From assembly GCF_947305105.1 (NCBI RefSeq), contig NZ_CAMZCS010000024.1, positions 1 through 51,399 of the forward strand: a stretch of DNA of 51,399 nt, read 5' to 3'. This document shows, piece after piece, positions 1 through 41,432 of this stretch (position 1 is its first letter; each line of letters begins with the position of its first letter). The position numbers and the translations under genes are program-made. The stretch comes from an uncultured Fibrobacter sp. (lineage in GTDB: Bacteria; Fibrobacterota; Fibrobacteria; Fibrobacterales; Fibrobacteraceae). Below the pieces are notes generated by a model, which saw nothing but the letters and a program-made list of their open reading frames with translations, had not been told where the DNA came from and made no database searches.

Positions 1-1404
<1,404 letters not shown>

Positions 1405-1408
1405 GGGA

Positions 1409-2104
1409 TTACTTCTTTTCGATGACGAGGATGTTCCCGTCGTAGGTCATGACCCCGAGCAGGATGCTGTGGATAAGCCGGAACTTGTCGACTTTGTAAT
1501 AGGGCCCGCTTGCCATGGGGTTGGTGCAGTCGGGGTCTGCAACCATGAACTGTTTTTTTTCGTCAAGTCCGTAAAGCACTACAAAGTGACCCATCGGGTC
1601 GCCGTGGATATCGTCAAAGACGGACTGGTCTTTATCGTTCGTGTATTCGCGGGGGCTGCGGTATAGATATGTGGCGCTTAAGCCGCAAAGCACAGGAATA
1701 CCGCGCTTGAAATATCCTTCGAACATGCTTGCCCGTAAATCGGCCGTTGCGACTGTACCGCCCAGGTCGATAAACCGGATGTAGGCGTCAATTGCCTTCT
1801 TGAGCTTGGGCGCATGTTTTGCCTTGTGGAGCTTCACGAGTTTCTCGCGGAGCTCGGGCATCTTGAGGTTACTCCATGTGGGGTCGAAAAGTTTGAGATT
1901 ATAAGAATAGATGGTCGCCTTGAACCCGCGCTTGAGCGCGTCGATGCCGAGGAACACGCCGAGCGTGCCGCCTTCTTCCAGGAACTCGATTTCGGAGATG
2001 AGCTTTTTAAGGGGTATCTTGTAGCCGAGATGCGAATATACCGCGTGTAGGCTGGTCGGTCCGCACGTGACATCGTCTGGCTGAGGGAGAATCTTTATTT
2101 CCAT
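1409..2104 (-). CDS. C39-like cysteine peptidase family protein (cytoplasmic)
   Basis: 231 residues from ATG 2104; an upstream TTG start at 2170 would lie before the likely -10 box and is rejected. The N-terminus has the papain-like Cys motif DDVTCGPTS (Cys14), a later His in GDPMGHFVVLYG (His173) and a following ADPD, which matches the Cys-His-Asp layout of C39-like peptidases. There is no signal peptide, no membrane segment and no ABC-transporter fusion, so it is not a bacteriocin exporter. It is the first gene of a two-gene operon with the N-formylglutamate amidohydrolase. Peptidase activity is inferred from the motifs; the substrate is unknown. Confidence 0.75.
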   Translation of the reverse strand: MEIKILPQPDDVTCGPTSLHAVYSHLGYKIPLKKLISEIEFLEEGGTLGVFLGIDALKRGFKATIYSYNLKLFDPTWSNLKMPELREKLVKLHKAKHAPKLKKAIDAYIRFIDLGGTVATADLRASMFEGYFKRGIPVLCGLSATYLYRSPREYTNDKDQSVFDDIHGDPMGHFVVLYGLDEKKQFMVADPDCTNPMASGPYYKVDKFRLIHSILLGVMTYDGNILVIEKK

Positions 2105-2160
2105 CGCTTTGCCTCGATTATGACGTGGCGGTTTGATACACAAATCGTCGAACGGGCGAA

Positions 2161-2166
2161 AATATA
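2161..2166 (-). promoter_or_regulatory. -10 box TATATT of the C39-like/amidohydrolase operon
   Basis: TATATT on the minus strand, with TTGGGC 18 bases further upstream as a possible -35. It leaves a leader of about 50 bases before ATG 2104 and is divergent from the radA promoter. Confidence 0.5.
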
Positions 2167-2277
2167 GCAAAAAGATTTAAAAATGCCCAAAAAACCTATA
2201 CTTTTTATTTTATCAGCTTCCGAAAAATATTTTCGTTTCTTTTATTGTGGTTGACACAAAATGTCATCTGATTTTGT

Positions 2278-2283
2278 TATATT
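2278..2283 (+). promoter_or_regulatory. -10 box TATATT of radA, 7 bases before the start codon
   Basis: TATATT ends 7 bases before ATG 2291 and no Shine-Dalgarno sequence lies between. A TTGACA at 2251 is 21 bases upstream, a longer spacer than usual, so its role as the -35 is uncertain. The mRNA is predicted to be leaderless or nearly so. Confidence 0.55.
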
Positions 2284-2290
2284 AGTGCAC

Positions 2291-3688
2291 ATGGTAGCAC
2301 TAAATAAAAGCAAGGCAAAAAAAGAGATTGAGTTTCTCTGCACGAGTTGCGGCAACACCACGACGAAGTGGGTAGGGAAGTGCCCGTTTTGCGGGGAGTG
2401 GAACACGCTCAAAGAACATGTGGTAGAACCGGTTCTGGAGAATTCGGGGCGTGGGGGCCGTGGCTTGGGTGGCCCTGTCCACCAGGTCGTGGCGCTCAAG
2501 GATGTCTCTACCGAAGACACGCGCCGGTTGAGTACGGCGAATACGGAATTCGACCGCGTGCTGGGCGGTGGCCTGGCACCGGGGTCGCTTGTGCTGATTG
2601 GCGGCGACCCGGGCATAGGCAAGTCGACGCTCGTGCTCACGACTCTTGCCACGATGACGGCTGCCGGTGTCAAGACGCTTTACGTGAGCGGCGAAGAAAG
2701 TGCAAGCCAGGTAAAACTTCGCAGCGAGCGCCTGAACGTTTCCGGGAGCGACATGCTCCTGCTCTGCGAGACGGGGCTCGAGAAAATTATCGAGAAGGCC
2801 AAGGAAATCAAGCCGCAGGTGCTTGTCGTCGACTCTATCCAGACGGTGTACAAGGGCGACTTGCCGGGAACGCCGGGGTCGGCTTCGCAATTGCGCGAGT
2901 GTACTTTGGACTTGATGGTGTTCGCGAAGAACACGGGGTGCATCACTATCCTTATTGGTCACGTGACCAAGGACGGGCAGATTGCCGGTCCTCGCATTTT
3001 GGAGCACATGGTCGATACCGTCGTGTATTTCGAAGGGGACCGCAATAACCAGTACCGCCTGCTGCGCACTATAAAGAATCGTTTCGGTGCTACCGACGAG
3101 ATTGGTGTTTTCGAGATGACGAGCCATGGGCTGAACGCCGTGCCGAACCCGAGCCGCGTGTTTCTGCAAGAGGGCGTTCCGCCGACTCCGGGGAGCGTTG
3201 TCTGCTGTACGCTCGAAGGCTCGCGCGCGTTGCTCTTTGAAACTCAGGCGCTCGTGAACCAGACAAACTTTGCCGTGCCGCAGCGTGTGGCCGCAGGTAT
3301 CGACCCGAAACGCCTTACGATTATCCTTGCGTTGCTCGAAAAATTCGGTGGCGTAAGTGTCGGCATGTGCGACGTGTTCGCAAGCATTGCCGGCGGCATC
3401 CGCGTGAGCGATACATCGTCCGACCTGGCCCTCGCGCTCGCTATCGCGAGCAACCATCTGGGGATCCCGCTGGGCCGCCAGACCATCGCCATAGGGGAGC
3501 TCGGTCTGTCGGGCGAGGTCCGGAATGTGAGTCTCTTGGACCAGCGGCTCAAGGAGGCACGCCGTCTGGGGATGACTGTGGCGGTGATTCCCTCGTCCGG
3601 TAAATTGCCTGAGTCTGTGGGGGGCATGCGCATTGTTCGCGTGGCCGGTCTCAGCGAGGCTGTGGCCTGGCTCATGGACCAGAAGTAA
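2291..3688 (+). CDS. radA: DNA repair protein RadA
   Basis: Cytoplasmic RecA-like ATPase that processes recombination intermediates by branch migration. The 465 residues show the full RadA plan: an N-terminal four-Cys zinc finger (CTSC and CPFC), Walker A GGDPGIGKST, the RadA-specific KNRFG motif, and a C-terminal Lon-protease-like domain. I chose ATG 2291 over ATG 2261 because the earlier codon lies inside the promoter, between the TTGACA and the TATATT box. The gene stands alone, divergent from the C39-like operon and convergent with the pentapeptide gene, with a shared terminator between. Confidence 0.97.
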   Translation: MVALNKSKAKKEIEFLCTSCGNTTTKWVGKCPFCGEWNTLKEHVVEPVLENSGRGGRGLGGPVHQVVALKDVSTEDTRRLSTANTEFDRVLGGGLAPGSLVLIGGDPGIGKSTLVLTTLATMTAAGVKTLYVSGEESASQVKLRSERLNVSGSDMLLLCETGLEKIIEKAKEIKPQVLVVDSIQTVYKGDLPGTPGSASQLRECTLDLMVFAKNTGCITILIGHVTKDGQIAGPRILEHMVDTVVYFEGDRNNQYRLLRTIKNRFGATDEIGVFEMTSHGLNAVPNPSRVFLQEGVPPTPGSVVCCTLEGSRALLFETQALVNQTNFAVPQRVAAGIDPKRLTIILALLEKFGGVSVGMCDVFASIAGGIRVSDTSSDLALALAIASNHLGIPLGRQTIAIGELGLSGEVRNVSLLDQRLKEARRLGMTVAVIPSSGKLPESVGGMRIVRVAGLSEAVAWLMDQK

Positions 3689-25156: not shown

Positions 25157-26818
25157 ATGAAAACGAAACTTTCAAGATTGATTGTCTTAGCTTTAGCCCT
25201 GGTTGCTGCTCCGCTGTTGGCGCAGAACCTCTTGACCAACGGTGACTTGTCGTACGGTGACGGGGGGTGGTACCTTTGGAACAATCCCGCCGGCCCGGCT
25301 GAGGTGCAGACCAAGATAGGGGAGATGGGTCTCGGTGTCGACGCTTCCGAAGGCGCGAAAGTGGTTGTGACGAAACTTCCCAAGGACTGGTGGGGGCTGC
25401 AACTCCAGCCGCCCAAGTGGCTTGCTCCCGATACCGGCTACTATACGCTCACCTTCAAGGCGAAGGGCAACATGCCCATCAACGCCGTGGTGCAGGGCGG
25501 GCCTCCCGATTATCGCCAAAAAGAGAGCGGCAGTTTCCAGCTGACCGACAAGTGGAAGACGTTCTCGATGACGTTCCTTGCCGACCAGAAAGGGTATGGT
25601 TTGAATAACGTAACGTTCCATGTCGGGCTCCAGAAGGGCTGGATGCAGATTGATGACGTGGAAATCGAGAAGGCCGAGTCCATGGATTCCGAATGGTATT
25701 CCAAGGCGAATTCCCGTATCGAGTGGCTGCGCAAGCAGGACTTTTCCGTGGAGGCCAAGCCGGGCGAGAAGGTCAGCGTGAAGCTTGTTCGCCATGCGTT
25801 CCCGTTCGGCACCGCGCTCAACATCCATACCGACAACCCGCGCGACAGTATCGAAAATTGGTACAAGGCCGAGGCCAAGAAGCTCTTCTGGTACGCCGTG
25901 AGCGAAAACCAGTTCAAGTGGCCTGAGTACGAGCCCAAGAAGGGCAAGCTCCGCAAGGACGAGATGTACCGCTACGTGAAGTTCACCCAGGCGAACGGCT
26001 GGAAACTGCGCGGCCACGCCATCATGTGGGCGCACCAGGGCTACGATTACGACAAACATTACTCCAATCCCAAATCGGCCAAGCAGTGCGGCGACCTCGC
26101 GAAGTACCTCAAGGCCCGCATCGAGCGCGACCTGACGGAATACAAGGGCAAGATTACGGAATACGACGTGTGGAACGAGCCGCTCCACGAGGCCTACGCC
26201 TTCAACACGTGTGGCTGGGGCATTCTCGACAGCGCGTTCATTTGGGCGCACCGCGTCGATCCTACGGCCAAGCTCTACATCAACGACTACAACGTCGTCG
26301 CGGCGGGGGAGACCGACCGCTATGTGGACCTGGTCAAGGGAATGCTCGACCGCAAGGTGCCCGTCCACGGCATCGGTGTGCAGTGCCATTTCGGGCTGCG
26401 TCCCGTGGTGCCGGGCCTCATCAAGGAACGTTTGGACAAACTTGCCACGCTCGGACTGCCTATCAAGGTGACAGAGTTCGACGTGGGCGACTGGCAGGTC
26501 GGCATGAACGAGTCCGAGGAGGTGCAGGCCGAGAAGTTCGAAACCTTTATTCGCACGGCGTTTAGCCATCCGGCTGTACACGGCATTGTGCTGTGGGGCT
26601 TCTGGGATAACCGCCACTGGGTCAAGAACGGCGGCATCGTCGCCGCTGACGGCCGTGAAAAGCCCGCCGCAAAGCGCGTCTACGACTTGTGGCACAAGGA
26701 ATGGACAACGGATACTACCGCCACGGCCGGTCCGGACGGCATGGCGAAGTTCCACGGGTTCAAGGGCCGCTACAAGGTAACGGTCGGCGACAAGAGCTTC
26801 GACAAGGATGTCTGGTAA
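25157..26818 (+). CDS. secreted GH10 endo-beta-1,4-xylanase with N-terminal carbohydrate-binding module
   Basis: 553 residues. The signal peptide ends at LLAQ (about residue 23). Residues of about 24-172 are a jelly-roll module of the CBM4/9/22 type (LLTNGDLSYGDGGWYLWNN...). Residues of about 180-515 are the GH10 barrel: HAIMWAHQG, acid/base Glu341 in DVWNEP and nucleophile Glu440 in KVTEFD. A short C-terminal part (GMAKFHGFKGRYKVTVG) resembles a small Ig-like tail. It cuts xylan outside the cell and exposes cellulose for the cellulases. No T9SS-like C-terminal domain is present, so export beyond the outer membrane needs another route or the protein stays periplasmic or membrane-bound. ATG 25157 follows GGGA. 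Confidence 0.95.
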   Translation: MKTKLSRLIVLALALVAAPLLAQNLLTNGDLSYGDGGWYLWNNPAGPAEVQTKIGEMGLGVDASEGAKVVVTKLPKDWWGLQLQPPKWLAPDTGYYTLTFKAKGNMPINAVVQGGPPDYRQKESGSFQLTDKWKTFSMTFLADQKGYGLNNVTFHVGLQKGWMQIDDVEIEKAESMDSEWYSKANSRIEWLRKQDFSVEAKPGEKVSVKLVRHAFPFGTALNIHTDNPRDSIENWYKAEAKKLFWYAVSENQFKWPEYEPKKGKLRKDEMYRYVKFTQANGWKLRGHAIMWAHQGYDYDKHYSNPKSAKQCGDLAKYLKARIERDLTEYKGKITEYDVWNEPLHEAYAFNTCGWGILDSAFIWAHRVDPTAKLYINDYNVVAAGETDRYVDLVKGMLDRKVPVHGIGVQCHFGLRPVVPGLIKERLDKLATLGLPIKVTEFDVGDWQVGMNESEEVQAEKFETFIRTAFSHPAVHGIVLWGFWDNRHWVKNGGIVAADGREKPAAKRVYDLWHKEWTTDTTATAGPDGMAKFHGFKGRYKVTVGDKSFDKDVW

Positions 26819-27441: not shown

Positions 27442-27578
27442 ACCCCAAAAAGTTGATGTAAATCATACTCTGCGCCTTTTTTCTCCAAAAGGTGTGTTTT
27501 AGCTTACTTTTCAAAAACGCTAAATCAAAAGTTTACATAGATTACTATTATTGGTTCATTACTCAGTCAGGGGTATAT

Positions 27579-29156
27579 ATGTTTAAAAAGTCTCTTTGCG
27601 TGGCCTTTTTGGGATTCCTATTGGTTCCCACAATGGCTTTTTCTGATTCCACTGCAGGTAAAGTCCGTTCCAAGCTAGGCGATGTCAATCGCCAGAAGGA
27701 AAATCAACAAACATGGAAACCCCTTTCTGTCGGGGCTAGCGTGTACATGTCCGACCGTGTGCGTACGGGGACAGAGTCCGAAGTGATCTTCGGCCTGCCG
27801 GACGGGAGTGTCGTTAGCATTGCCGAAAATGCAGAAATGGTGATTGCCGACCTTTTCGAAAAGGATGGCGTTTTCAGGACAAAATTGGATATTAAGAAGG
27901 GCCATGTCGGCTTCGATGTCAAGAAGCTTTCGGAGAAGTCCTCGTTCGAGTTCAAAACCGGTACGGCGACCGCTGCGATTCGCGGTACAAAGGGCTTTAT
28001 CGGCGGCGAAAAGGGCTTTGTCGGTAGCTTGAAGGAAGGTAAGCTTGAGATTACCTCGACGAAGAGCGGCCGGAAATTCTCGATCGGCGCCGGTGAAACG
28101 GCCTTGGGTCGTGATTCTCTCGTTGTGCTCAAACTTGCAACTTCCGGTAGCCCCTCTCTGGCCAAGGCTTTGGCCAAGGTAACCGAAGACTCGACGCTTT
28201 CTATCGACCAGATTGTCGAGGCGGCCAAAGTGGCCGATTCTACGGTCGCTGCCAAGGAAAACGCGCCGCTTGACGAAGAATCCATGAAGGTTTCTTCCGT
28301 TTCGTCGGTAGTTTGTTCGGGTGGCCTCCAGATTGAAGGTTCCTACCGTACGGCGGTTTCTACCGCTTCCCTTGTTGTGAAGGCCGGAACGTATGTTTCT
28401 GAGAACCTGGCCACATCGACCGACGGGAAGACGCATACTTTCTCTGTCAGCGTTCCTGTTACCGATGAAAACAAACTTTGGACGCTTACTTCTGCTGACG
28501 TTGTCTTGACTGCCGGCGAAAAGGTTGTTACCGAGACGGTCTCCTATACGGCCGACAAGAGCTGTGCCGAGGTGAATACGCGCCCCGCACAGATCCGCTT
28601 CAGTAGCTATGATTCCCTCCGTTGTGTCGCGAATGTGGCCGTTTCCGGCCTCGAGGACGATGCCGCCATATTCTCCGTGGATGTGGACGGAACTCCGAAA
28701 ACGCACGAATCTTTGACCCGTAACGCCTTGAAACGCGCCAAACTCTCCGAAGGGGTTCACGAATACGTGTTCTCCGCAGTGGATATGGCGAAAAACAAGG
28801 TTGAACTGAATAAAAAGCTGGGCTGTTTCCCGCCGCGGAAGTTCAATGTCCAGATTCTCGGCAAAAAACGCGAAGTTGTGTCGAACCCGCCAGGGACTCC
28901 GAAGGGGTATGACAAGATTGTAAAGACGGTTCAGTTTACCGTCCGTGTGCCGGGTGGCGATCCGAGTGTTCTTTACAAGGTTGTTGTGAAGCAGAATAGC
29001 CGCATCATCTTGGAGGAATCTCTGAACCAGATTCAGGCTTTGGATTACCAGGTCCCTGTGGAACTGGTTCGCAAAGGAGTCAACAAAATAGAAGTCGAAG
29101 TCACTCATAAGAGTGGTTACATTGTAAAAGCTCAGAAGGTATACGAGGTCTTTTAA
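27579..29156 (+). CDS. exported FecR-domain protein
   Basis: 525 residues from ATG 27579, with AGGGG upstream; the earlier in-frame start at 27492 gives no signal peptide. The signal peptide ends near MAFSD (residue 23). A FecR domain covers about 25-210 (GASVYMSDRVRTGTESEV, LPDGSVVSIAENAEM, ATAAIRGTKGF). The rest is a series of beta-rich segments with paired Cys, ending in a Lys-rich Ig-like module. It lacks the anti-sigma membrane part of classical FecR and no ECF sigma gene is near. So this is the periplasmic or surface type of FecR protein, often found with large exported proteins. Its stop abuts the start of the barrel protein. Confidence 0.9.
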   Translation: MFKKSLCVAFLGFLLVPTMAFSDSTAGKVRSKLGDVNRQKENQQTWKPLSVGASVYMSDRVRTGTESEVIFGLPDGSVVSIAENAEMVIADLFEKDGVFRTKLDIKKGHVGFDVKKLSEKSSFEFKTGTATAAIRGTKGFIGGEKGFVGSLKEGKLEITSTKSGRKFSIGAGETALGRDSLVVLKLATSGSPSLAKALAKVTEDSTLSIDQIVEAAKVADSTVAAKENAPLDEESMKVSSVSSVVCSGGLQIEGSYRTAVSTASLVVKAGTYVSENLATSTDGKTHTFSVSVPVTDENKLWTLTSADVVLTAGEKVVTETVSYTADKSCAEVNTRPAQIRFSSYDSLRCVANVAVSGLEDDAAIFSVDVDGTPKTHESLTRNALKRAKLSEGVHEYVFSAVDMAKNKVELNKKLGCFPPRKFNVQILGKKREVVSNPPGTPKGYDKIVKTVQFTVRVPGGDPSVLYKVVVKQNSRIILEESLNQIQALDYQVPVELVRKGVNKIEVEVTHKSGYIVKAQKVYEVF

Positions 29157-32100
29157 ATGAATTTTCTATATCGAATTCTCCCGCTAGTTCTCATTGTCAC
29201 CCCTCTATCGTTTGCTGCAGGAGAAACCTCGCAGGCTTCGTCTAAAGCTAGCGCGCCTGCCCCGGCGGCGACTCCGGCTCCTGCGCCAGCGCCTGCTCCG
29301 GCTCCGGCACCTGCTCCGGCTCCGGTTGCGGCCCCAGCCCCAGCTCCCGCCCCGGCACCAGCTCCCGCTGCGGCATCTGCTCCGGCCCCTAAGCAAACGG
29401 CAGCTCCGGCTCCGGCAACGGAAAATGTGGCAAAGAAGGTGAAAGACGAAGAACCGGTTGACGATATAGATGCTCTTTCTGGCGATACGCTCCCTGTCGT
29501 GAACGGAACGCCGCTTTCGGGCTCTGTTTCAGGCTTCTTGAGCAAAGACAAGTCCCCGTACCTCATTAGCGATTCCCTGATTGTCGGCGAAGGCCAGGCC
29601 CTCGTCATCCAGCCGGGTGTTATTATTGCTTTCAAACCGGGAGCTATCCTCGATATTCGTGGAGGCTCCCTTGCTGTTGCTGGTGAAGAGAAGTCTCCGG
29701 TGATTTTCCGCCCATTCAACAAGATGGGCCACTGGGGCGGTATCCGCATTGCTGGCCCCATGCAGGCGGACTTCAAGAACGTATTTATCCGCAATGCCGT
29801 CAATGCCGTGTCGGTGGAAAATGGAACTCTTACAGTCCAGAATGCCGTTATTGACAAACCGCTCGAAACGGGTGTTTACGCCCGCGCTGCGAAGGTGACC
29901 CTCCAGAATTCTATCATGACGAACGCCTTGGGCGTTGGTTTCTGGGCTGCCGACAAGTCGACTCTCCGCTTGGACAATGTCCGTGTCAACGGCAACAAGG
30001 TCGGCCTTGTGGCCGAATCGAATGCCGAAGTCCGGCTTAATACCTCTACCTTCGGCTCCAACGAGGTCGCTGTCTTGAACATGGGCGACAACAATGTCAC
30101 CGAGACGGGTTCGTCCATCACGGGGAACAATTTTGGCGTCGTCTCTACCGAATTCCCGGTGAAATTCAAGAATGCCATTAGCTATAACGAAGAAGATGCC
30201 GCTTCCAATGCGAGAAAGCTGCATTCCACCTTGCCCAAGGAACCGAAAAACCCCAATGCGGGTGGCTATCGTGCAAACGAGCCGGTCCTTGACGATATCG
30301 ACCCCGATGCTCGCTGGAAAATGTCCGGTAACGTGGTTTCCGATGTGGGATACCACCTCGTGCGTACCCGCCACAATCATACGGGTGCCGATTTCTATAG
30401 TGGCGTGAGGGATACGGTCAAGAATGGCGACCGCTACGTCAACTACTTCCAGACGCCTGGATTCTTTACGAATTTGAGCGCCTACATGTTGATGGAATCT
30501 CCGTGGGGCAGTTCCTTGGAACTCACTGTGGACCTCTCGAGCGATTCCTGGAACAGTTTCAATCCCCATACCTTGCAGGCTATTTATACGGACCCGTTCC
30601 AGAAATTGGCTTTGGGTAATATATACCTCTCCGGTGGGAACACCTACCTCGAAGGTATTGATGTGCTCGGTGGTTCTTATGACTTGAAGATTTTGCACAA
30701 CCGTGCCGGTGACCCGCTCTTTGTCGTGACCGGCTTTGCGGGTGAAACTCGTAACCCGCTGAAAGAAGGCGATAGAAATCCGGATATCTACAAGGATTAT
30801 GTCGAGGTGGGCGAGGCTGAATCCCAGGAAATGGTCGCTGGCGGTATGGTCCGCTGGAACATGCATCCGCAATTCTCCGGGCTTCTCGGCTTTATGGGCA
30901 GCAAGGACTATATTGAAGACCCGTTCCTCCGCGACGGCATGAGCGAAAATACGTTGCTTGCCACTCCGCGCCGCAGTTCGCAGACCGCCTTTGCCGAGGG
31001 TAGCTGGATTGCTTATCCGGGTAACATGGAATTCCACGGCAACCTCGCTATCGGTGCCGCCGATACGTCGAACGCCCGTTCTATCCGCGCTGTGAACCAG
31101 GTGTTCTCCAATGCGGGCGTGAGCACTTCCAATTATAACCTGCTCAACCGCTTGATGAAGGACCCGGGTGTCGTCTCTCGCATGAGCGAAAAGGAACTCG
31201 TGGCCATCTTTGGCGACAACACGATGATGACGACTTCGCAGATGAGGGCTGAACTGAAGCGCCTGCTCGAAGAGGCGAAGAGGGTTCGCAATCAGTATGC
31301 CTCGAATGGTTACGAAAATGACCGCCTTTCTGACTGGAACGGCAAAAATGCCGCTTTCGGTGCCGATTTCCGCTGGACATACCATAAGTCCGAACTGAGC
31401 GCCTACCTCCGTGCTGTCGGTCCTGAATTCTACAGTGCCGGTTCTCCGGATCAGATCCAGAACTCCCGTGAGTTCGGTGCTTTCTTCAAGCAGGGATTCT
31501 CCGACTTCTGGACATTGACGATGACTTATGACGTGGATGTCGAAAATGCCGGTAACGGCAACCAGTACAACGCCTTCGGTTTCAACGAGGGTACGACTTG
31601 GGGCTTGTTCAACGAAGCTCCGGATAGCTGGCTCGAGGAACACGAAATGGATGAAAACCGCGCCATCAACACTCAGGATGCGAGCGCCAAGAACCTCATC
31701 AATATCGGTTCTTATGTGGACTTGACTCTCGGTTATGCGTTGAACTACAGAAGCCACCATCGCCCGACTCGCCTCTATGCCGATTTCGACAAGGCTTCGG
31801 GTGTCTATGAAGACAGTTGGTTCAAGGCTAGAGGAAAATCGACCCTCAAGGTCAACGATTCCCTGGAAATCGATTCTGCCCGCTGGGCTCAGTACTATTC
31901 TCATGTCCAGGATGAATACCTGGCTGCGGACTTTACCGAAAAACTGCTGAAACAGTCCGTCCAGGTGAATTTCGACATCAAGATGCCGTACAATGTGCTG
32001 AGCCTTGGCTGGATTCTCACGTTCCGCAACGATCTTTCTGAATTCGACGACGACAAGGCCATGGACGAATTCGACTTTAGCGACGAGACTTACGGCCTTC

Positions 32101-32525
32101 TCGGTTACTATTTCCATGGTGGCGACTATGTGGAACATCGCTTCCCGACCAGCTTGACGACGACGGTGGGCGACATCACGAACGTCATTTCGTTTACGCC
32201 GCGCTACAAGGTGTTCAACCGCAACGACATGACCGATTTCGAGTGGTTCCTTTCTGACAACTTTACTTGGGGCATTTCCAAGAACTTCCTCGAGCTGACT
32301 CTTGCCGGGTCGCTCCGTCGCGAGTTGCTGGAATACACCGACGAGGGTGTGGACTATTCCGAAGAGGAAATGGATGTGGACGGATCTGTCATGTTCCGTG
32401 TGTATTTCACGAAAACATTCTTTACGGACTGGACTTTGGGTGCCGTTTACGACTACCGCCCGGATAGCCGCTCTGACGAATACAAAGACTTCTATGGTAT
32501 TCTTTCTTTGAATTATGCCTTCTAG
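29157..32525 (+). CDS. beta-helix and outer-membrane-barrel protein with Ala/Pro-rich linker
   Basis: 1122 residues. The signal peptide ends near FAAG (residue 22). A low-complexity Ala/Pro linker covers about 33-85. Residues of about 120-260 are a right-handed parallel beta-helix (QPGVIIAFKPGAILDIRGG, then repeated N-rich turns). The large remainder is rich in alternating aromatic beta-strands, and the final residues GILSLNYAF end in Phe, the classical C-terminal signature recognised by the outer-membrane insertion machinery. I infer a surface or periplasmic beta-helix attached to an outer-membrane barrel. Start codon directly follows the FecR-gene stop; the T9SS-like cargo gene follows after 19 bases. 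Function unknown; transport or anchoring of the next gene's product is one hypothesis. Confidence 0.85.
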   Translation: MNFLYRILPLVLIVTPLSFAAGETSQASSKASAPAPAATPAPAPAPAPAPAPAPAPVAAPAPAPAPAPAPAAASAPAPKQTAAPAPATENVAKKVKDEEPVDDIDALSGDTLPVVNGTPLSGSVSGFLSKDKSPYLISDSLIVGEGQALVIQPGVIIAFKPGAILDIRGGSLAVAGEEKSPVIFRPFNKMGHWGGIRIAGPMQADFKNVFIRNAVNAVSVENGTLTVQNAVIDKPLETGVYARAAKVTLQNSIMTNALGVGFWAADKSTLRLDNVRVNGNKVGLVAESNAEVRLNTSTFGSNEVAVLNMGDNNVTETGSSITGNNFGVVSTEFPVKFKNAISYNEEDAASNARKLHSTLPKEPKNPNAGGYRANEPVLDDIDPDARWKMSGNVVSDVGYHLVRTRHNHTGADFYSGVRDTVKNGDRYVNYFQTPGFFTNLSAYMLMESPWGSSLELTVDLSSDSWNSFNPHTLQAIYTDPFQKLALGNIYLSGGNTYLEGIDVLGGSYDLKILHNRAGDPLFVVTGFAGETRNPLKEGDRNPDIYKDYVEVGEAESQEMVAGGMVRWNMHPQFSGLLGFMGSKDYIEDPFLRDGMSENTLLATPRRSSQTAFAEGSWIAYPGNMEFHGNLAIGAADTSNARSIRAVNQVFSNAGVSTSNYNLLNRLMKDPGVVSRMSEKELVAIFGDNTMMTTSQMRAELKRLLEEAKRVRNQYASNGYENDRLSDWNGKNAAFGADFRWTYHKSELSAYLRAVGPEFYSAGSPDQIQNSREFGAFFKQGFSDFWTLTMTYDVDVENAGNGNQYNAFGFNEGTTWGLFNEAPDSWLEEHEMDENRAINTQDASAKNLINIGSYVDLTLGYALNYRSHHRPTRLYADFDKASGVYEDSWFKARGKSTLKVNDSLEIDSARWAQYYSHVQDEYLAADFTEKLLKQSVQVNFDIKMPYNVLSLGWILTFRNDLSEFDDDKAMDEFDFSDETYGLLGYYFHGGDYVEHRFPTSLTTTVGDITNVISFTPRYKVFNRNDMTDFEWFLSDNFTWGISKNFLELTLAGSLRRELLEYTDEGVDYSEEEMDVDGSVMFRVYFTKTFFTDWTLGAVYDYRPDSRSDEYKDFYGILSLNYAF

Positions 32526-32544
32526 GCGTATGGGGAGTTGAAAG

Positions 32545-35500
32545 ATGAAAAACGTTAATAAATACAAGAAAAAGACAATATTTAATCGCATTTTGGCCAT
32601 TTTTCCATTTGCGTTGTGTGCTGCGGGCTATTCGTATGCAGATTCGGTTACGGATGCTATTCCAGAAAAAGCTTGCACGTTTTTTATAGACGATGTTATT
32701 GATTGGGACAGGCTGCGTAGTGATATTACAACACACTCTTCTTTCGATTGCCCTGTTATTGCCGTCAAAATTTCCGGGACACTCCATTTCTCCGATGTCT
32801 CTTCTATGCCTAAGCAGTCGGCATTTCCTACAATTGACGTGCAAATTGATTTGCAAAAACGTGACCTCTACATTTACGGAGACCCGAATTCAAGCAAGAA
32901 TGTCATTGAGGGTGTTGTGCTGAAAGGTAGGGAGACGTCGCTTTTTACGAATCTTGGTAATATTCTCTATGTTGACGGTGTTGATATTGAAAACAGTTTC
33001 ATACTTCCTCAAGCAGAAAGAAAGCTTCCTCGTAACGTCGGTTTCTTTGCTGATACAGTGAAGAATGCCTATTTCAAGAATGTGAATCTGAAAAATGTCG
33101 GTATGAGGGGACTTTTAGATTCCACGAATTCACTATCGACGTTCAATGATGTGGGATTCCTTGTGGGTGTCGTCGAAAGAACGGCTGAGGTGACTCACGT
33201 CTCTGTAGATGGTCTTCAGATTTTCGATATGTATGTCTCTAATATGGGCAGTCTTTTCGGGCGTGCTAAATGGAGCGTTTCTGCGGATGATTGCCAATTG
33301 TCTAATATTGCTTTGACGGGATCGTTGATGCCCGGTAATTCTAAAGATGTTATCTCGATGTCTGCGTTTGGTGGCCTTGTGGGTTCACAAGATATAAGCG
33401 CCGGATTGTTTACGGTGAACAATACATCGATAGATGCGGACATTTCTCTCGTGGGCCAAGGTTTTGAAAAATTTGCCTATGCCGCTGGTGTTGCTGGTTA
33501 TGTGATGGCCAATGTTGCTGACATTGAGCGCGTTTCTGTTTCTGGAAACATTAATGTGCAGAACTCTAGCACGTCTGCAATGACGAAGGCTTCGACGATT
33601 AGAGCTGCAGGCATTTTCGCTTATTGGAATTCCCGAAATCTGAATTCTAGATTGAATTTTGAAAAAATACAGTCCTCGGTGGATTTTTCTGTGGATTTGT
33701 CAAATTATGAGCAGACTGTCATTACGAAGCCGAGCAGTGTCTCCGCAGTTATCAACCAATCTGCTGTAGGTGGACTTGTTGGATATGTCGCATTCTCGGA
33801 CAAAAATCAGATCAATGTCATTGAATCTGAATTTTCGGGATCTATAAATTATCAGTCTGGCGACTTAGGATATCCTGGGCTTGGTGGAATTATCGGCGTA
33901 TATAAAAATACAAGTGCTGACGAGTCGCCATTAACGTTCTCTGATGTAAAAGTGAATGGAGATGGAGCTATACAGTATGATGGCACTGGCTATGCAAGCG
34001 TCGGAAATCTCATGGGTGTTGCTGTGAATGCTTCGATTCGCGCAAGTGAAAGTGTTTTTGAAAAAGACATCCATGTGACGCTTTCTGGAGATGAAGGGGA
34101 CATTGATGGCGCTTCTGTTGGTGGCGTTATCGGTACTGCAATCCAAGCTCCTGTGAAATTCATCGATGTCTCTGTCAAAAGCGATTTGTTCGTTGACGAC
34201 AATATGAAAAATGCAGACATGTCTGCCGATAGACTGGATTTGTCCATAGGCGGTGCTGTTGGTTATGCTGAAGAATCTTCATTGAAATTGGATGTAGATT
34301 ATTTGGGAACGATTTCGGTTACTCGCGACAATTCTGGATCGACAAAAGAAAAAGCCTCAAAACAATATGTTGGTGGCCTTGTCGGTAAAATTTATGGCAC
34401 CAACGATGCGGAGTCTGCACCCGAAGTCGTTATCTTGAATTCTAGTGCTGTCGGCAAGAATGGAACATTGATATCGACTGTTTTCAAAGGAAATAAAAAC
34501 TACAGCTCCTTCATGACGGGTGGGTTAATCGGTGGCTCTGTTCTTAGAACAAAGTCTATTCGAATCGAAAAAACCTTTGTCACTGGGGATATCACTGCGC
34601 AAGACATGAAGCATGATGGCATTTCTTACATGTCGGGTATGCTAGGCTTTATTTTGGTGAATGGGAATGTTGATATCATGAATTCCTACTACCATGGCGC
34701 AATGGTTACGTCGGTGGATCCTGGTTGGCCTGATGATGTTGAGCTTAGTGTAAATTACTACCCAGTTGCATCGTTTGGTATGATTGATGACCTCACGCTA
34801 AGCAATGTGTATGTGTGCGAAACGAATAGCATGGCCTCTTCTGGATCGCTTTATTCGGCTGGTGCGTACACTAAAGTGAATCTTGAAAATGCTCTTGCAT
34901 TTAGCAATGAAAATTATGTAACAAATAAGATGGCGATGAATTCTCCTGCATTTGCATACAGCCTCAACGAAAATCTGGAAGAACCCCTTTGGTTCTATGA
35001 TATGAATAGTAACGGCGGACTTCCGCAATTGAGCCTGGCTGCAAGCGATCCTAAGCCAACCCAGAAGGTGACCTTGGCTGGTTTTGACGTAAGCGGAGAC
35101 GAGGCGTCTGATGTCGTCATTTATACCAATAGTGATGGCAAATGGGAACTCAAGGGGGACGGTCGTCGCTTCAACGACAATGACTTGGATGTCGCCATTT
35201 ACGATCCTACAACGAAAAAGCTCGTATTCTGGAAGCAGCAAGGTGGCGATCTGGAATGGAAGGGCCTCTCTGAAATGGGGAGTGTTCTTGCTGATGGCAT
35301 GGTATTCGAGAAGCAGGTCGTTGATGTCCCCAAGGTGTCGTTTGGCGTGGATACAACTGTCGAAAGTGGAAACCGCATTTGGTTCTGGGACAATTCCGAA
35401 TACAGCATGGTTGACGATGAAAAGTTGCCTGATGCCGTATTTGAAATCGTGTTTAACGGAGTGTCGACGATTTACAAGGGCGCCTATTGGACGGTTCCTG

Positions 35501-37644
35501 GGAAAAATGTCGTGTTCACTTCTTCGGCGCAACTCATTGATTATGTCTCTCACAATCTGCCAGAAGATGGAAACCTGAAGTTAGAATTCGCTTTTGACGC
35601 CATAAGCGCACTTATGTTCAAGAAAACGAATAATGCTTCGCTTACTCTTGAGGAAGAGAATCTCTGGAAATCTCTGGAATCTCAGAGATTCGAAACGACT
35701 GTGGTGTTCTCAAATACCTCGGGCGTGTTGGCTCGCTATACTTCGGCCGGGCACGAGAGGATTGGTGCTGTTACAATAAAGGGTGGAAATTCTGCGCTAT
35801 TGCCGAAGGTTGACAAGTTCGCAATTATCGATGTCTTGGATGGAGATTCTTCTTCGTTCTCCTTTGTCATCAGCAAGACCGGTGGTGAAGTGCTCCGTTC
35901 TGAATATCTGTATGGAGAAGATCTTGATTTGTCCACGCTTCTCTCGGACGGTGACCAACTGATGATTTATCGGATGGGACGCATATATCATGTGCCGACA
36001 GGGCCGGATTCCGTGATTGTTGTGGATTCTACAGGAAAGCCCTCTATCGTGACTGTTGATTCGACTGGAACCTCGGTGATTGTGCCTATAGAGCCGCCGG
36101 AAGATATTGTTCCTGATCTTCCGCCTGTTGTCGACCATTCCGACGAATGTGCTGACAGTGTCTCGATTTCCGATGCCAGTGTGATCAAGTCGGGTACCGC
36201 AGCGTTGTTCTCCTTCAAGATGGATGCTCCGAAATTCTGCGATTCGCTCCTGAATCCGCATGTGATTGTCTCGGGTGCAGATGGAATCGTGAAGGACTCT
36301 GCGTTCGCATTTAGCCGCAAGACTCGTGAGTTCATGATTTATCCGCTCGATCCGGGTGAGTACACCTTCAAGATCAAGGCTTCTTCGAAGAAGAGCAAGT
36401 CTGTCAAGCAGGAATTCTCTGCCGATATCGAAATCCGCGGCCGCGTGTGGAACATGGTGGCTTACGGTTCTTGGCCGAAGAACGTTCTGAAGAACGCCAA
36501 GCCGACGATTTATTCTTGGAACGAGTCGAACGCGATTGGCGACTACTGGCAGTACGAAGCTTTGCCCAAGAATGCCAAGGCCGTCGAGACGGTTGGTTAC
36601 TGGGTCCGTACCGAATCCAACGTGGAATTCAGCCTGGATTTGCCGCTGAAGAAGGCCGAATCCGATTCCCTGAGCTGGACTGTCGAGAAGTCGTTCAGTG
36701 GTTGGAATATGCTTGCTAACCCGTACTCCTGGAACCTGTATGTCGGTTCTGTGGATGGATTCAAGTCTCCGGAAGACGAAACATCCCCGATTTGGCACTG
36801 GAATAACATCACCGCAAGGTATGATATTATCGATACCTTGTTGGCGAACGAAGCGTTCTGGATCCAGGTGGATCGCAAGAGCACGATCAGCATTAGTTCG
36901 AAGCCGGTGTTCCCGGCGGTCAAGGCAAACTCCGCGGCCAAGAAGTCTTCGCTCCTCAAGAGTGCAACGAAGGATTCCTGGAGTATGATGCTTGTTGCTA
37001 CTACGGAAGACGGCGCTGCCGATTCCTGGAACGTACTCGGCGTGGGCTCCAAGAACATCGCGATTGCCGAACCGCCTGCCGGTATGGAAAGTGCTGTTGG
37101 CGTGTCGTTCGTGGGTGAAGACAATGCCATGCTCGCCAAGCGCATCTTGGCCAAGGCCTCCAGTGAAGAATACACCTGGAAGGTCCAGCTGAACGCCTCC
37201 AAGAGCGGGAAGGTGAACCTTGCTCTCGAAGGCCTGGACGAAGTTCGGGCCATGGGCTACGAAGTCTCTCTCGTCATGGATGGAAAGACTTACGAATGGA
37301 ACGACAATTCCTCGATGGACGTGAATGTCTCGGGTTCCAAGACGGCCGAATTGAAGGTCGTTCCGGCGGGCAAGAAGATTGCCGCAGCCAAGGGAATTGG
37401 CAATGTGCATTACGATGTGGTTGCTGGCGGGATTGCCGTGCAGTTTGACGTGTCGGCCGGAATGGCCGGCCAGAAGGCCTCTGTGCGCCTCCTCGACGTG
37501 AACGGCAACGTGGTCTCGACGGTCTACGGGAATGCCCGTTCCGGCACGAACGACTTCCGCTTGGCCGCCCCGGCTCGCAGCGGCGTGTATGTTTTGCAGG
37601 TCCGCGTGGACCGCGAGTCCCGTGTGGCTCGTCTGTCCCTCTAA
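32545..37644 (+). CDS. giant exported protein with GLUG-type repeats and T9SS-like C-terminal sorting domain
   Basis: 1699 residues. ATG 32545 is preceded by GGGGAG. A signal peptide ends near YSYAD (residue 33). Residues of about 90-700 form a beta-solenoid with at least seven GG(L/I/V)(V/I)G motifs of the GLUG type ([28 protein letters not shown] and others). The middle has bacterial-Ig-like and Ser/Thr-Val linker segments ([12 protein letters not shown]). The last 80 or so residues match a type A T9SS sorting domain ([12 protein letters not shown], then [12 protein letters not shown] and final basic ARLSL). It is predicted to pass the outer membrane by T9SS and stay on the surface. The 5' half is more AT-rich and less codon-biased than the 3' end, which suggests a mosaic origin. 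Confidence 0.88.
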
Positions 37645-37655
37645 TCAAGGGCCGA

Positions 37656-38483
37656 ATGTACATCGGTTGTCATCTATCTTCTATGAAGGGCTTCCTTGCG
37701 ATGGGCAAGGATGCCCTTTCTATTGGCGCAAACGTATTCCAGTTTTTTACCCGTAACCCGCGCGGCGGAGCGGCGAAGCCTTTTGACAAGGCCGATGCCT
37801 TGGCGCTTGTGGATTTGATGCAGTCAAACGGTTTCGGGCCAGCACTTGCGCATGCTCCTTACACGCTCAACCCGTGTGCTGCCGATCCAGGACTTCGCGA
37901 CTATGCCCGCGATGTGATGAAGGACGACCTGTGGCGTATGGACCATTTCCCGGGGGCAATGTATAACTTCCATCCGGGGAGCCATGTGAAGCAGGGCGTC
38001 GAGCGCGGAATCGAACTGATTGTCGACCACCTGAACGCCATTTTGCACCCGGAATTGAAGACGGTCGTGCTCCTCGAGACCATGGCGGGGAAGGGGAGCG
38101 AGATCGGGCGCACGTTCGAGGAACTGCGTGCGATTATCGACCGCGTGGAACTGGCGGATAAAATCGGAGTGTGCCTCGATACCTGCCATGTACACGACGG
38201 CGGTTACGACATCGTGAACCACCTCGACTGGGTGCTGGAACAGTTCGACAAAATTATCGGGTTGAAACGGTTGCGCGCCATCCATTTGAACGATAGCAAG
38301 AATCCGCTTGCAAGCCACAAGGATCGCCACGAAGTTATCGGTGCGGGTTTTATTGGGCTGGAAGCGCTTGTTCGTATTGTGAACCATCCGGCACTTCGCG
38401 ATTTGCCTTTCTACCTGGAAACTCCGAACGAACTCCCCGGCTACGCCGCCGAAATTGCGCTTATGCGTAAGCATGCAAAGTAG
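37656..38483 (+). CDS. nfo: deoxyribonuclease IV (endonuclease IV)
   Basis: 275 residues. Zinc-dependent AP endonuclease that cuts DNA at abasic sites in base-excision repair. Seen: GCHLSSMKG at the start, [43 protein letters not shown] and HLNDSKNPL, the full set of metal ligands. It starts 11 bases after the stop of the giant surface protein with only AAGGG as ribosome-binding site, so it is probably read through from that operon. ung in the same window acts upstream in the same repair pathway. Confidence 0.97.
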
Positions 38484-38694: not shown

Positions 38695-38699
38695 CTTAG

Positions 38700-38730
38700 G
38701 ACCCCGTTCGAAAGAGCGGGGTTCTTTGTT
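38700..38730 (+). terminator. terminator of tRNA-Asn
   Basis: A 9-bp stem (ACCCCGTTC/GAGCGGGGT, one G-U pair) with a GAAA tetraloop, followed by TCTTTGTTT, directly after the tRNA. Confidence 0.85.
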
Positions 38731-38780: not shown

Positions 38781-38821
38781 TCGCAAATAAAAAAATTACA
38801 ATGACGTGGAGGAAAAATCCA

Positions 38822-39919
38822 ATGTATAAGTCTGCTTTGTTGAGTATTTTGTTTGGCCTCTTTTTTCTCCTGAGTGCTTGTGGTGATGTCGAAGTTACGA
38901 CGTCTGAACTTGACTCAGGGCGTGGCTCCGACGATGCCGAAGCTATTGATTCTGTCAAAACCATTTACGATTTGGGCGAATGCAATAAAAAGCGTAATGG
39001 TGAAGTTGTTTTTATTCTGAAGGATGAATCGTACCGCCTTTGTCAAGGTGAAGATTGGCTGAAACTGGATGCGGATCCGGAGTCTTCGTCCTCTTCTAAA
39101 AAGGTATCGAGTTCGTCGAGCAAGAAGTCTTCTTCGTCTTCTGCCAAGTCGTCTAGTTCCTCGAAGCAAAAGTCCTCGTCTTCTGCCAAGTCATCCAGTT
39201 CGTCGAAGCCGGAATCTTCTTCCGATAAATCTAGTTCTTCCGATGAATCCAGTTCCTCCGAGGAATCCAGCTCTTCCGAGGAATCTAGCTCGTCGATACT
39301 TGATTCGTTGTTGCTGCCACGTGAACCGAATATTGACCTGTCTGTGGAATATGATTGCGAGGTGTACGATTGCGTGACAACGGCGCTCCTGAACCAGAAT
39401 ATGCTCGATTCCGGCGTGTACGGCCAGTTCCTTGATGTCCGTGATAGTCAGGTTTATCGTACCATAGCAATCGGTTCGCAGATTTGGCTTGCTCAAAATT
39501 TAAATTACATGACTGATTCTAGTCAATGCTATAACGCTTGCTCAAAATATGGACGTCTCTACTATCAGTCGGAAGCTCTGCATATTTGCCCTGAAGGATG
39601 GCATTTGCCGAGCAGCGAGGAATGGAATACCCTGGATACAATCGTCAGCGCCTTGAAAAAAAGCGACATCGGCAATGGAAATGCCTTGAAATCCATTAAT
39701 TCGTGGACCAGAGAAAAGGGAAATGACGAATTCGGATTCTCCGGTCTTGCCAGTCATTATTTCGGAAGCGTCTATATTTGCAGAGGAGATCACGGCGTGT
39801 ACTGGACATCGGACGAATATGAATATCGCTGTCTGCTGAATGACCGCTCTGACTTGTATCCTTACAAGGAAACTTATAGTAAGGATTGGGGCATGGCTGT
39901 CCGCTGCCTGATGGATTAG
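38822..39919 (+). CDS. lipoprotein with poly-Ser linker and FISUMP domain
   Basis: 365 residues from ATG 38822, which has GGAGGA in front; ATG 38801 would place that site inside the gene. Lipobox LLSAC. A short conserved stretch (about 45-85) with EVVFILKDESYRLCQGEDW comes first, then a Ser-rich linker of about 80 residues with Lys, later Glu/Asp. The C-terminal FISUMP domain follows: LAQNLNYMT, CYNACSKYGRLYYQ, HICPEGWHLPSSEEW, GVYWTSDE and final MAVRCL. It is a paralogue of the lipoprotein at 19432 but uses an acidic second half of the linker. The fibro-slime gene follows after 28 bases, so the two are likely co-expressed. Confidence 0.94.
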   Translation: MYKSALLSILFGLFFLLSACGDVEVTTSELDSGRGSDDAEAIDSVKTIYDLGECNKKRNGEVVFILKDESYRLCQGEDWLKLDADPESSSSSKKVSSSSSKKSSSSSAKSSSSSKQKSSSSAKSSSSSKPESSSDKSSSSDESSSSEESSSSEESSSSILDSLLLPREPNIDLSVEYDCEVYDCVTTALLNQNMLDSGVYGQFLDVRDSQVYRTIAIGSQIWLAQNLNYMTDSSQCYNACSKYGRLYYQSEALHICPEGWHLPSSEEWNTLDTIVSALKKSDIGNGNALKSINSWTREKGNDEFGFSGLASHYFGSVYICRGDHGVYWTSDEYEYRCLLNDRSDLYPYKETYSKDWGMAVRCLMD

Positions 39920-39947
39920 TTACTATTTTTTAATTGTGGGGTTAAAT

Positions 39948-41432
39948 ATGGACAAATTCATCTTTTTTTGTGCGGTCGGCATGCTGACTATGGCTTTCGT
40001 TGGTTGCGATTCTTCGCACACTTCTAAGCCGATTGTCATTGATGAAGAACTTGCATCGATTGATCCGGATCCGACCCAGAGCGAAGATATCAAGGCTCTG
40101 GAAGTCGTTATCCGCGATTTCTCTACAGGATTCCCTGATTTTGATAACTTCCAGTCGGAAGCTTACGAAAGCCAGGTCAGTAGTAAAATCAATCGCGAAA
40201 AATATCCTGAAACCCCCTCCGTTGACACATGGAAAACTTGGCTTTATCCCGGTTATGTCGACAATGAGGATTGGAAGGCCCGCCGTGAAATTCCTAATGG
40301 TTACGATACTTATGGCTGCGGAAATGCCCAGACGCCTAAGTATGGTATAGCTGTCGGGACTCAGGGGGCTCCTCATGACCGTACAAGTGCCACGGGAGTA
40401 TCTTTGGCTACGCCCGATTACATAAATGAAAATCTTGATGCTTCGTACGTTTGGTATGGAGAATTTGGGGCATGCAATGGCGGTAACAGAACTGTTCGCG
40501 GTTATGCTCACGAACTTTGTACCGATGCGACGGAAACGTGGGATGATTCTACAGTAACCCGTAGGTGTGATAAAGAATGTGGCGCTTATATTTGGGCCGA
40601 AAAGGTGTATATTACGCCGGGCATGGTCGAACAGAAACTTACTTTCAAGAATGGTGAAGATGGCAAGTTGAACATGCTCGAACCGGTCATTACGAAGGCG
40701 CGCGACGCATGTGACAACATGTATTTTGAATTGTGGTTTACAGACAACTCAATGAATAAAACTTCCGAAGGAACGCTCGAACTCAAGCAAAAAGAGTCAG
40801 AGACGGGACTTTGGTATGACTGGAATAATGGTGGGTTCTATCCTCTAGATTCCGTTGAAGATGATGGCAAATGGAAGTCTATAAATACTAAGTTCGAAAA
40901 CCAATTTGGTCCGCAAAGTTTGACGATTTATTGTCCGCCTTACAATTATATATATGCGTCAACTCAAACGGATCGGTTTGGGTCGCAAACAAATAATCTT
41001 TGCTCGGCATGGTTGAATGCAGGTGGGCCGAGAGTTGAAGATGCGGCTTTGACTGCTGCCATGAGAGATGCTCGGGCTGGGTTAGTTAATCTCCGCAATT
41101 CCGGCTTTACTATGATGGGGTATGCTCCGTTCAAGTATAAGAAGGGTGCCGGCAAGATGTTCGAGTTTACTTCGCTGGACGATATGTGGGTTTTTGTCGA
41201 TGGCGTTATGGTGCTGGATTTGGGCGGCACCTCGTCGCCCAAGAAAGGTTGGGTTGAATTGGATCGGCTCGCAGTGAACAGTCATGGATGCCATTCGGAC
41301 GACCCCTTGCAGGCTTACTGTAGAGGGAAAATTGAAAATGATGGATCCTGGAAAGACGGTACTTGGCACCATTTGCATGTTTTCTATGCAAATCGGCATT
41401 CCAGCAATTCAACGCTCTACATGAGTTTCTAG
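39948..41432 (+). CDS. fibro-slime domain lipoprotein
   Basis: 494 residues from ATG 39948, with GGGG upstream. Lipobox FVGC. The mature protein opens with VVIRDFSTGFPDFDNF and closes around FEFTSLDDMWVFVDGVMVLD and GTWHHLHVFYA. These are the two halves of the fibro-slime domain, a PA14-like lectin fold described from F. succinogenes and Myxococcus. Fibro-slime proteins are linked to adhesion to cellulose. Here the two halves are separated by about 250 residues with several Cys, longer than in the compact form. It is the second gene of a FISUMP/fibro-slime pair and ends in a strong terminator. Confidence 0.94.
   Translation: MDKFIFFCAVGMLTMAFVGCDSSHTSKPIVIDEELASIDPDPTQSEDIKALEVVIRDFSTGFPDFDNFQSEAYESQVSSKINREKYPETPSVDTWKTWLYPGYVDNEDWKARREIPNGYDTYGCGNAQTPKYGIAVGTQGAPHDRTSATGVSLATPDYINENLDASYVWYGEFGACNGGNRTVRGYAHELCTDATETWDDSTVTRRCDKECGAYIWAEKVYITPGMVEQKLTFKNGEDGKLNMLEPVITKARDACDNMYFELWFTDNSMNKTSEGTLELKQKESETGLWYDWNNGGFYPLDSVEDDGKWKSINTKFENQFGPQSLTIYCPPYNYIYASTQTDRFGSQTNNLCSAWLNAGGPRVEDAALTAAMRDARAGLVNLRNSGFTMMGYAPFKYKKGAGKMFEFTSLDDMWVFVDGVMVLDLGGTSSPKKGWVELDRLAVNSHGCHSDDPLQAYCRGKIENDGSWKDGTWHHLHVFYANRHSSNSTLYMSF

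Follow-up and report, generated by a model that had tools for sequence, protein, structure and literature searches.

The window analysed here is a 51,399-nucleotide contig from an uncultured Fibrobacter sp. (contig G000:C24; labels beginning with L denote the loci compared and those beginning with G the genomes compared, G000 being the genome of the window). Among named relatives of this genome, the nearest are Fibrobacter metagenome assemblies obtained from ruminants and other herbivores. The window contains three adjacent genes, here called A, B and C. A and B represent a previously undescribed outer-membrane pair, with a polymorphic protein of the type IX secretion system (T9SS), encoded by C, attached; no description of such a FecR/beta-helix/barrel pair in Fibrobacter was found in the literature searched. 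In the reading that we prefer, and to which we give about an even chance, C encodes a polymorphic surface solenoid, exported by the T9SS, as a companion of the conserved A-B pair, which is its likely partner. The three genes lie on the same strand, with 0 nt between A and B and 19 nt between B and C, as an earlier note on this DNA had described, and the signal peptides that it had assigned to all three products correspond to signal-peptide-like starts, as judged from the sequence by eye. The genes and their main parts are as follows.

27579..29156, + strand: gene A, 525 amino acids (aa); signal peptide, FecR domain (residues 59-141), immunoglobulin (Ig)-like region, conserved C-terminal domain; partner of B
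29157..32525, + strand: gene B, 1122 aa; signal peptide, Ala/Pro linker, beta-helix, 26-stranded barrel, terminal Phe
30321..32522, + strand: barrel part of B, residues 389-1122, from an AlphaFold2 model; helical insert in extracellular loop 6 (residues 638-716)
32545..37644, + strand: gene C, 1699 aa; signal peptide, GLUG beta-solenoid (~43-760), further domains, T9SS type A sorting domain (1642-1694)
32578..36294, + strand: recombinant hypervariable segment of C, approximately residues 12-1250, recognized by synonymous divergence (dS), discordant trees and identity switches; borders approximate, 5' border sharp
36295..37644, + strand: conserved C-terminal module of C, ~430-450 aa, with the T9SS sorting domain at its end; for this module, the C proteins of the trio are a separate clade

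Recombinant mosaic structure of C

The divergence of C was compared with that of A and B among seven separately assembled genomes of the clade to which the window belongs. Relative to the window, A is 85-96% and B 85-95% identical in this clade (dN/dS 0.06-0.11), as compared to 42-57% for C (dN/dS 0.30-0.39). The variation in C is confined to approximately residues 12-1250; the first 800 residues are only 28-37% identical to the window in genomes where B is 85-95% identical, while the C-terminal quarter follows the neighbouring genes. Between the window and L045, dS ranges from 0.9 to saturation for residues 12-1250, as compared to 0.17-0.5 for residues 1251-1699 and 0.41 for B, and the DNA of these two loci is identical up to codon 11 of C and unrelated immediately beyond it. 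L066 resembles the window in B (93% identity) but not in the first 800 residues of C (33%), whereas its identities to L068 are 86% and 72%, respectively; along C, L066 tracks L068 until ~35.2 kb, next L045 and finally the window. The trees of A and B also conflict with the tree of the N-terminal part of C. Together, these comparisons show C to be a mosaic, formed by recombination of old alleles between related lineages. An assembly chimera is an unlikely source of the mosaic, as C is an open frame of 1652-1705 aa between the same flanks in all seven independent assemblies.

As a control, we used two T9SS proteins encoded elsewhere in these genomes that have the same C-terminal tail as C (same-tail paralogs). 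Their overall identities in G013, G008 and G018 were 97, 68 and 67% and 78, 69 and 68%, as compared to 57, 42 and 44% for C, and their N-terminal parts were collinear at 57-70% identity in global alignment. In a second lineage carrying the three genes, represented by L077 and L124, C is 47% identical and A and B are 75% identical, indicating that the fast divergence of C extends past the clade of the window. A weaker version of the same pattern was seen in another T9SS-tailed protein (L166:6034-8928), in which the first 400 residues are 63-64% and the tail 91-96% identical between G000 and G013.

Architecture and predicted export of C

The earlier note had described C as a 1699-residue beta-solenoid; the length and the presence of a solenoid hold, but the solenoid spans only residues ~43-760. 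Its GLUG motifs are recovered by PF07581 (21.0 bits, cutoff 20.5), and C contains 7 GGxxG motifs as compared to a mean of 0.9 in shuffled sequences. An AlphaFold2 model of residues 1-950 reached a predicted local distance difference test score (pLDDT) of 83 and a predicted TM-score (pTM) of 0.83, with pLDDT >90 over most of the solenoid. The nearest folds to the modelled solenoid (VIA-align, Z <=16.9) are autotransporter passengers, GLUG-bearing IgA1 proteases and phage tailspikes, resemblances that are a likeness of predicted fold and as such indicate no function; a Foldseek search with the solenoid gave no match below E 0.001.

The T9SS sorting domain, which the earlier note had called T9SS-like, scores 25.6 bits against TIGR04183 (cutoff 23), and the orthologs in L045 and L046 are also above the cutoff (25.8 and 27.6 bits). 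The window genome encodes SprA (SprA_N, PF14349, 70 bits over cutoff) and a C25 peptidase (Peptidase_C25, PF01364, E 3.6e-72), while PorV (PF19572) gave a match just below its cutoff (25.9 vs 27 bits). Use of the T9SS by F. succinogenes S85 has been proposed from proteomics (PMC6851124). C thus has the attributes of a T9SS type A cargo, i.e., a sorting domain above the family cutoff in a genome with the machinery genes, and export by the general T9SS would be the simplest reading. With this sorting domain in C and both SprA and a C25 peptidase in the genome, B would not be required for C to cross the outer membrane.

Distribution and co-inheritance of A, B and C

The A-B-C trio is not confined to one strain, an outcome that the earlier note had named as fatal to its proposal; it recurs in 16 non-redundant Fibrobacter-family loci, where the gene directly 3' of B encodes 1207 to 3306+ aa (L157, in which the next long gene is 2 kb off, was left out of this count). 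In the B tree, all loci with C fall in one of two paralogous branches, and C was never seen in the other. By parsimony, a single gain of C beside A-B, at the base of one B branch, was followed by at least four losses. The C-terminal module of C also occurs in T9SS-type proteins elsewhere in these genomes; the tails of the trio C proteins, however, form one clade apart from these same-tail paralogs (support 1.0, midpoint root), and the tree of the trio tails has 10 of 12 splits in common with the B tree. The separate clade and the shared splits show that the trio is a vertically inherited unit, and, as the trio is found at differing genomic places in different lineages, the linkage is held by more than local synteny.

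The A-B pair has a much wider distribution than the trio. In Fibrobacter, it occupies two conserved sites, one beside SUI1 and endonuclease IV genes (the site of the window) and the other beside a ybeY-like gene and an FAD (flavin adenine dinucleotide) oxidoreductase gene. A is immediately 5' of B in nearly all loci with an upstream gene on the contig, mostly with an overlap of 1-4 nt; L128/L156 are exceptions to this order, and L060/L134 has a called gap of 495 nt. Remote A-B pairs extend to other families, and those of L044, L148, L149, L151 and L152 belong to other orders and classes within Fibrobacterota. The one scan of genome contigs for homologs of the pair listed Fibrobacterota only, and its patterns favour close relatives. 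A profile of B matches 162 of the 167 genomes of the phylum; in many of these the beta-helix region alone scores, which means that the barrel has a more restricted range. Pairs lacking C far outnumber the trio and extend into other classes of the phylum, and A-B is an old two-gene outer-membrane unit of Fibrobacterota that is older than the trio.

The window genome carries a second A-B pair (L025:6138-10381, on G000:C6), in which the B homolog has 784 aa and, like ~20 others, no beta-helix. In three distant members of the phylum (L151:10198-11499, L149:10664-12052 and L152:4384-5676), a gene of 430-462 aa is located directly 3' of B at a gap of 2-4 nt; the one tested has no Pfam match.

Relationship between C and the A-B pair

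We propose that A is exported and most likely binds B in the periplasm, as suggested by the near-obligate and often overlapping gene order. According to the trees, the large T9SS cargo C joined A-B once, in one B branch, and has since been inherited together with it. C would leave the cell through the general T9SS rather than via B, as its sorting domain and the T9SS genes suggest, and would be retained at the surface with the solenoid outward and A-B as the likely outer-membrane partner. The solenoid would provide a recognition or adhesion face, which in the clade of the window is swapped between lineages against a constant background of A, B and the sorting end; selection on this variation could come from phage, grazers/protozoa, substrate or neighbouring cells. 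The swapping of the outer two-thirds of C by recombination fits a recognition or attachment protein rather than a housekeeping protein. The co-inheritance makes a role of A-B in holding or assisting C at the surface plausible, and we infer physical contact between C and B.

Several observations weigh against this proposal. Most A-B loci do without C. The omega of residues 12-1250 of C is <1, so that what the data show is recombination of old alleles and not positive selection. Among the more distant trio C proteins, the T9SS tail scores below the TIGR04183 cutoff. Finally, the extracellular loops predicted for B (see below) are no more constrained in C-bearing than in C-less lineages when pairs are matched for divergence; relaxation of the loops in C-less lineages had seemed to be a sign of B-C contact in a first comparison, and this effect was gone once pairs were matched for strand identity; a label-permutation value of 0.03 was disregarded, as it takes neither phylogeny nor divergence into account.

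An alternative is that A-B is an independent outer-membrane pair, i.e., a channel or envelope scaffold, and that C is a co-transcribed T9SS hitchhiker, which we consider a serious possibility that nevertheless falls short of even. Such independence would agree with the occurrence of A-B without C at two conserved loci beside housekeeping genes, with a constraint on the B loops that is independent of C, and with the location of T9SS proteins having the same tail elsewhere in the genomes without A-B. However, C has remained adjacent to B over a deep divergence and in several genomic settings, and the tails of the trio C proteins constitute a single clade that agrees with the B tree, where a pure bystander would be expected to separate or to be replaced more often.

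The earlier note took the three genes to suggest a dedicated export or display device, in which A-B would be the port for C across the outer membrane. Although the adjacency of the genes (19 nt gap), their co-inheritance and the wide 26-stranded barrel could be read in this way, C carries the sorting domain of a T9SS type A cargo in a genome that encodes SprA and a C25 peptidase, A-B mostly occurs without any C, no POTRA or usher domain was detected in B, and the beta-helix of B is absent in many homologs. We thus regard a dedicated A-B port as very improbable.

Predicted structure of B

The Ala/Pro linker, beta-helix, barrel-like part and terminal Phe that had been read from B by eye were all borne out: residues 23-118 are 57% Ala plus Pro, the beta-helix matches PF13229 (E 1.6e-8), and the terminal Phe is common to every listed relative. 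An AlphaFold2 model of B based on 37 homologs (mean pLDDT 77, pTM 0.56) consists of a disordered linker to residue ~115, a right-handed beta-helix (~118-330) and an all-beta C-terminal barrel (388-1121), and the absence of a barrel, which the earlier note had put forward as grounds for abandoning its proposal, was not found. From the model, 26 long strands could be read. The gaps between them alternate, the 12 even gaps having 2-5 residues and the 13 odd gaps being generally longer, with up to 95 residues. As this is the normal topology for an outer-membrane barrel with both ends periplasmic, the N-terminal beta-helix should be periplasmic, and B is accordingly modelled as an outer-membrane barrel with the helix on the periplasmic side. 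The predicted extracellular loops are conserved like the strands (mean top-residue frequency of 0.60 and 0.57, respectively), unlike those of surface-exposed porins, which usually have hypervariable loops.

No Pfam model matches the barrel, and several known classes of outer-membrane protein were considered and rejected for B. A classical autotransporter has a 12-stranded C-terminal barrel as compared to 26 strands over 734 residues in B, and the Pfam autotransporter barrel is unmatched in 37 members of the B family. A two-partner secretion or Omp85 transporter has 16 strands plus POTRA domains, whereas B has 26 strands with a beta-helix in place of POTRA, and no POTRA or Omp85 Pfam match was found.

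Comparisons with the Protein Data Bank used predicted models, so that a family absent from the match lists may still be related. The best match of the beta-helix is AlgG (VIA-align Z 22; 229 residues, within residues 112-354), a right-handed beta-helix with the same fold. In contrast to AlgG, however, the helix of B matches only the generic Beta_helix model, is poorly conserved and is missing from many B homologs, including the second copy in the window genome (L025); a catalytic role is thus unlikely, and the helix is dispensable for the core function of B. A third family of proteins, of ~240 aa, resembles only the start of this helix (L042:8035-8751 and G000:C47:17955-18230) and is found in almost every Fibrobacter genome, G001, a genome without a barrel-bearing B, among them.

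The best solved match of the barrel is MtrB (6r2q_B; VIA-align Z 20.6, 449 residues, root-mean-square deviation 4.3, 12% identity), which is also the best whole-barrel match and has the same number of strands. B could on this basis be an MtrB-like sheath or conduit of extracellular electron transfer with A as its inserted partner, a reading that we consider highly improbable. While the 26-stranded fold of MtrB/PioB is present in B, in a predicted model only, PF11854 (MtrB/PioB) has no match in the window genome nor in 37 B proteins, A is a FecR/Ig-like protein and not a multihaem cytochrome, and B adds an N-terminal beta-helix and a helical loop insert. Replacement of LptD-LptE by A-B in lipopolysaccharide export, for which one could cite the 26 strands of B and the lack of any match to PF04453 in the window genome, is almost certainly wrong, as B matches neither LptD model (PF04453, PF19838), B aligns poorly with LptD in structure (TMq 0.15), and an essential LptD role is refuted by a clear, separate LptD of the Bacteroidota type on another contig (PF19838, E 3.8e-71). 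This Fibrobacter LptD (L195, G000:C21:4995-6410) is detected by PF19838 (LptD_2) and missed by PF04453.

Gene A

A contains a FecR domain (PF04773, E 2e-10) that is present in 37 of 37 members of the A family, of which 22 also have a Big_13 Ig-like domain. The description of A as an exported FecR-domain protein without a sigma factor held up, with no sigma factor gene among the annotated neighbours. A FecR of cell-surface signalling would have an adjacent gene for an extracytoplasmic function (ECF) sigma factor and a cytoplasmic anti-sigma part at its N terminus; we rejected A as such a protein, as it has no sigma factor neighbour and its signal peptide immediately precedes the FecR domain. 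Closer parallels are the leptospiral surface proteins Lsa33 and LipL45, which likewise have an exported FecR domain without a sigma factor; their matches to A are weak, and A differs from them in being coupled to a large barrel and in having Ig-like domains and a conserved C-terminal domain. A sequence search for solved relatives of A and B found nothing informative.

Neighbouring genes and features

Three further features flank the trio in the window.

27471..27496, + strand: terminator-like hairpin between the SUI1 gene and A; a consensus match only, such matches being near the shuffled mean in number
37656..38483, + strand: AP (apurinic/apyrimidinic) endonuclease gene, endonuclease IV type, 11 nt past C; PF01261, E 3e-52; housekeeping neighbour
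38698..38725, + strand: terminator-like hairpin with a 12 bp stem at the end of the presumed A-B-C-endonuclease unit; a consensus match only

The AP endonuclease gene is probably in one transcription unit with A-B-C, and in many C-less species the endonuclease IV gene comes straight after A-B. Upstream of the SUI1-A-B locus, the clade of the window has a glycoside hydrolase family 10 (GH10) xylanase with a weak CBM_4_9 match (25157-26818); other Fibrobacter species have at this position very large proteins (>1100 to ~1970 aa) or an acyltransferase/AMP-ligase-like protein of 1150 aa. Further downstream (38801-41432) are two lipoprotein-like genes. The product of the one has a Fib_succ_major (FISUMP) domain (E 3.2e-17) as well as a long Ser-rich linker, and that of the other gives a weak PA14 match.

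Significance and comparison with known systems

Fibrobacter is a main degrader of plant fibre in ruminants, and little is known of the architecture of its surface or of what it encounters there. The present analysis defines an A-B pair that is present in most of the phylum, together with a linked T9SS protein with a shuffled outer part. Should the variable face of C turn out to serve in phage reception, adhesion or recognition, strain-level interactions in the rumen could be approached directly through it, and C would also be a case of a T9SS cargo with a dedicated outer-membrane partner.

Like T9SS type A cargo in general (TIGR04183/Por_Secre_tail), C has a signal peptide, a large repeat domain of extracellular type and a C-terminal sorting domain. 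It differs from the usual cargo in that it is locked to an outer-membrane gene pair and that its passenger is a recombinant mosaic.

A further comparison is with TraA/TraB of myxobacteria, a polymorphic receptor for self-recognition and its outer-membrane partner (PMC6372800). Pfam scans gave no sign of sequence homology: PA14 was unmatched in C, as was OmpA in A and B. The A-B-C system also differs from TraA/TraB in its T9SS tail, in having a 26-stranded barrel instead of an OmpA-type partner and in its extra FecR protein, and recognition is here an analogy. A polymorphic system of surface recognition in rumen Fibrobacter, with exchanged solenoid alleles and functionally parallel but unrelated to TraAB, is a specific possibility for A-B-C that we consider unlikely. 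What the two systems have in common is a surface protein that varies yet keeps a conserved sorting end, and whose gene adjoins that of a conserved outer-membrane protein, as is evident from the identities of the first 800 residues of C (28-37%) and of B (85-95%) to the window.

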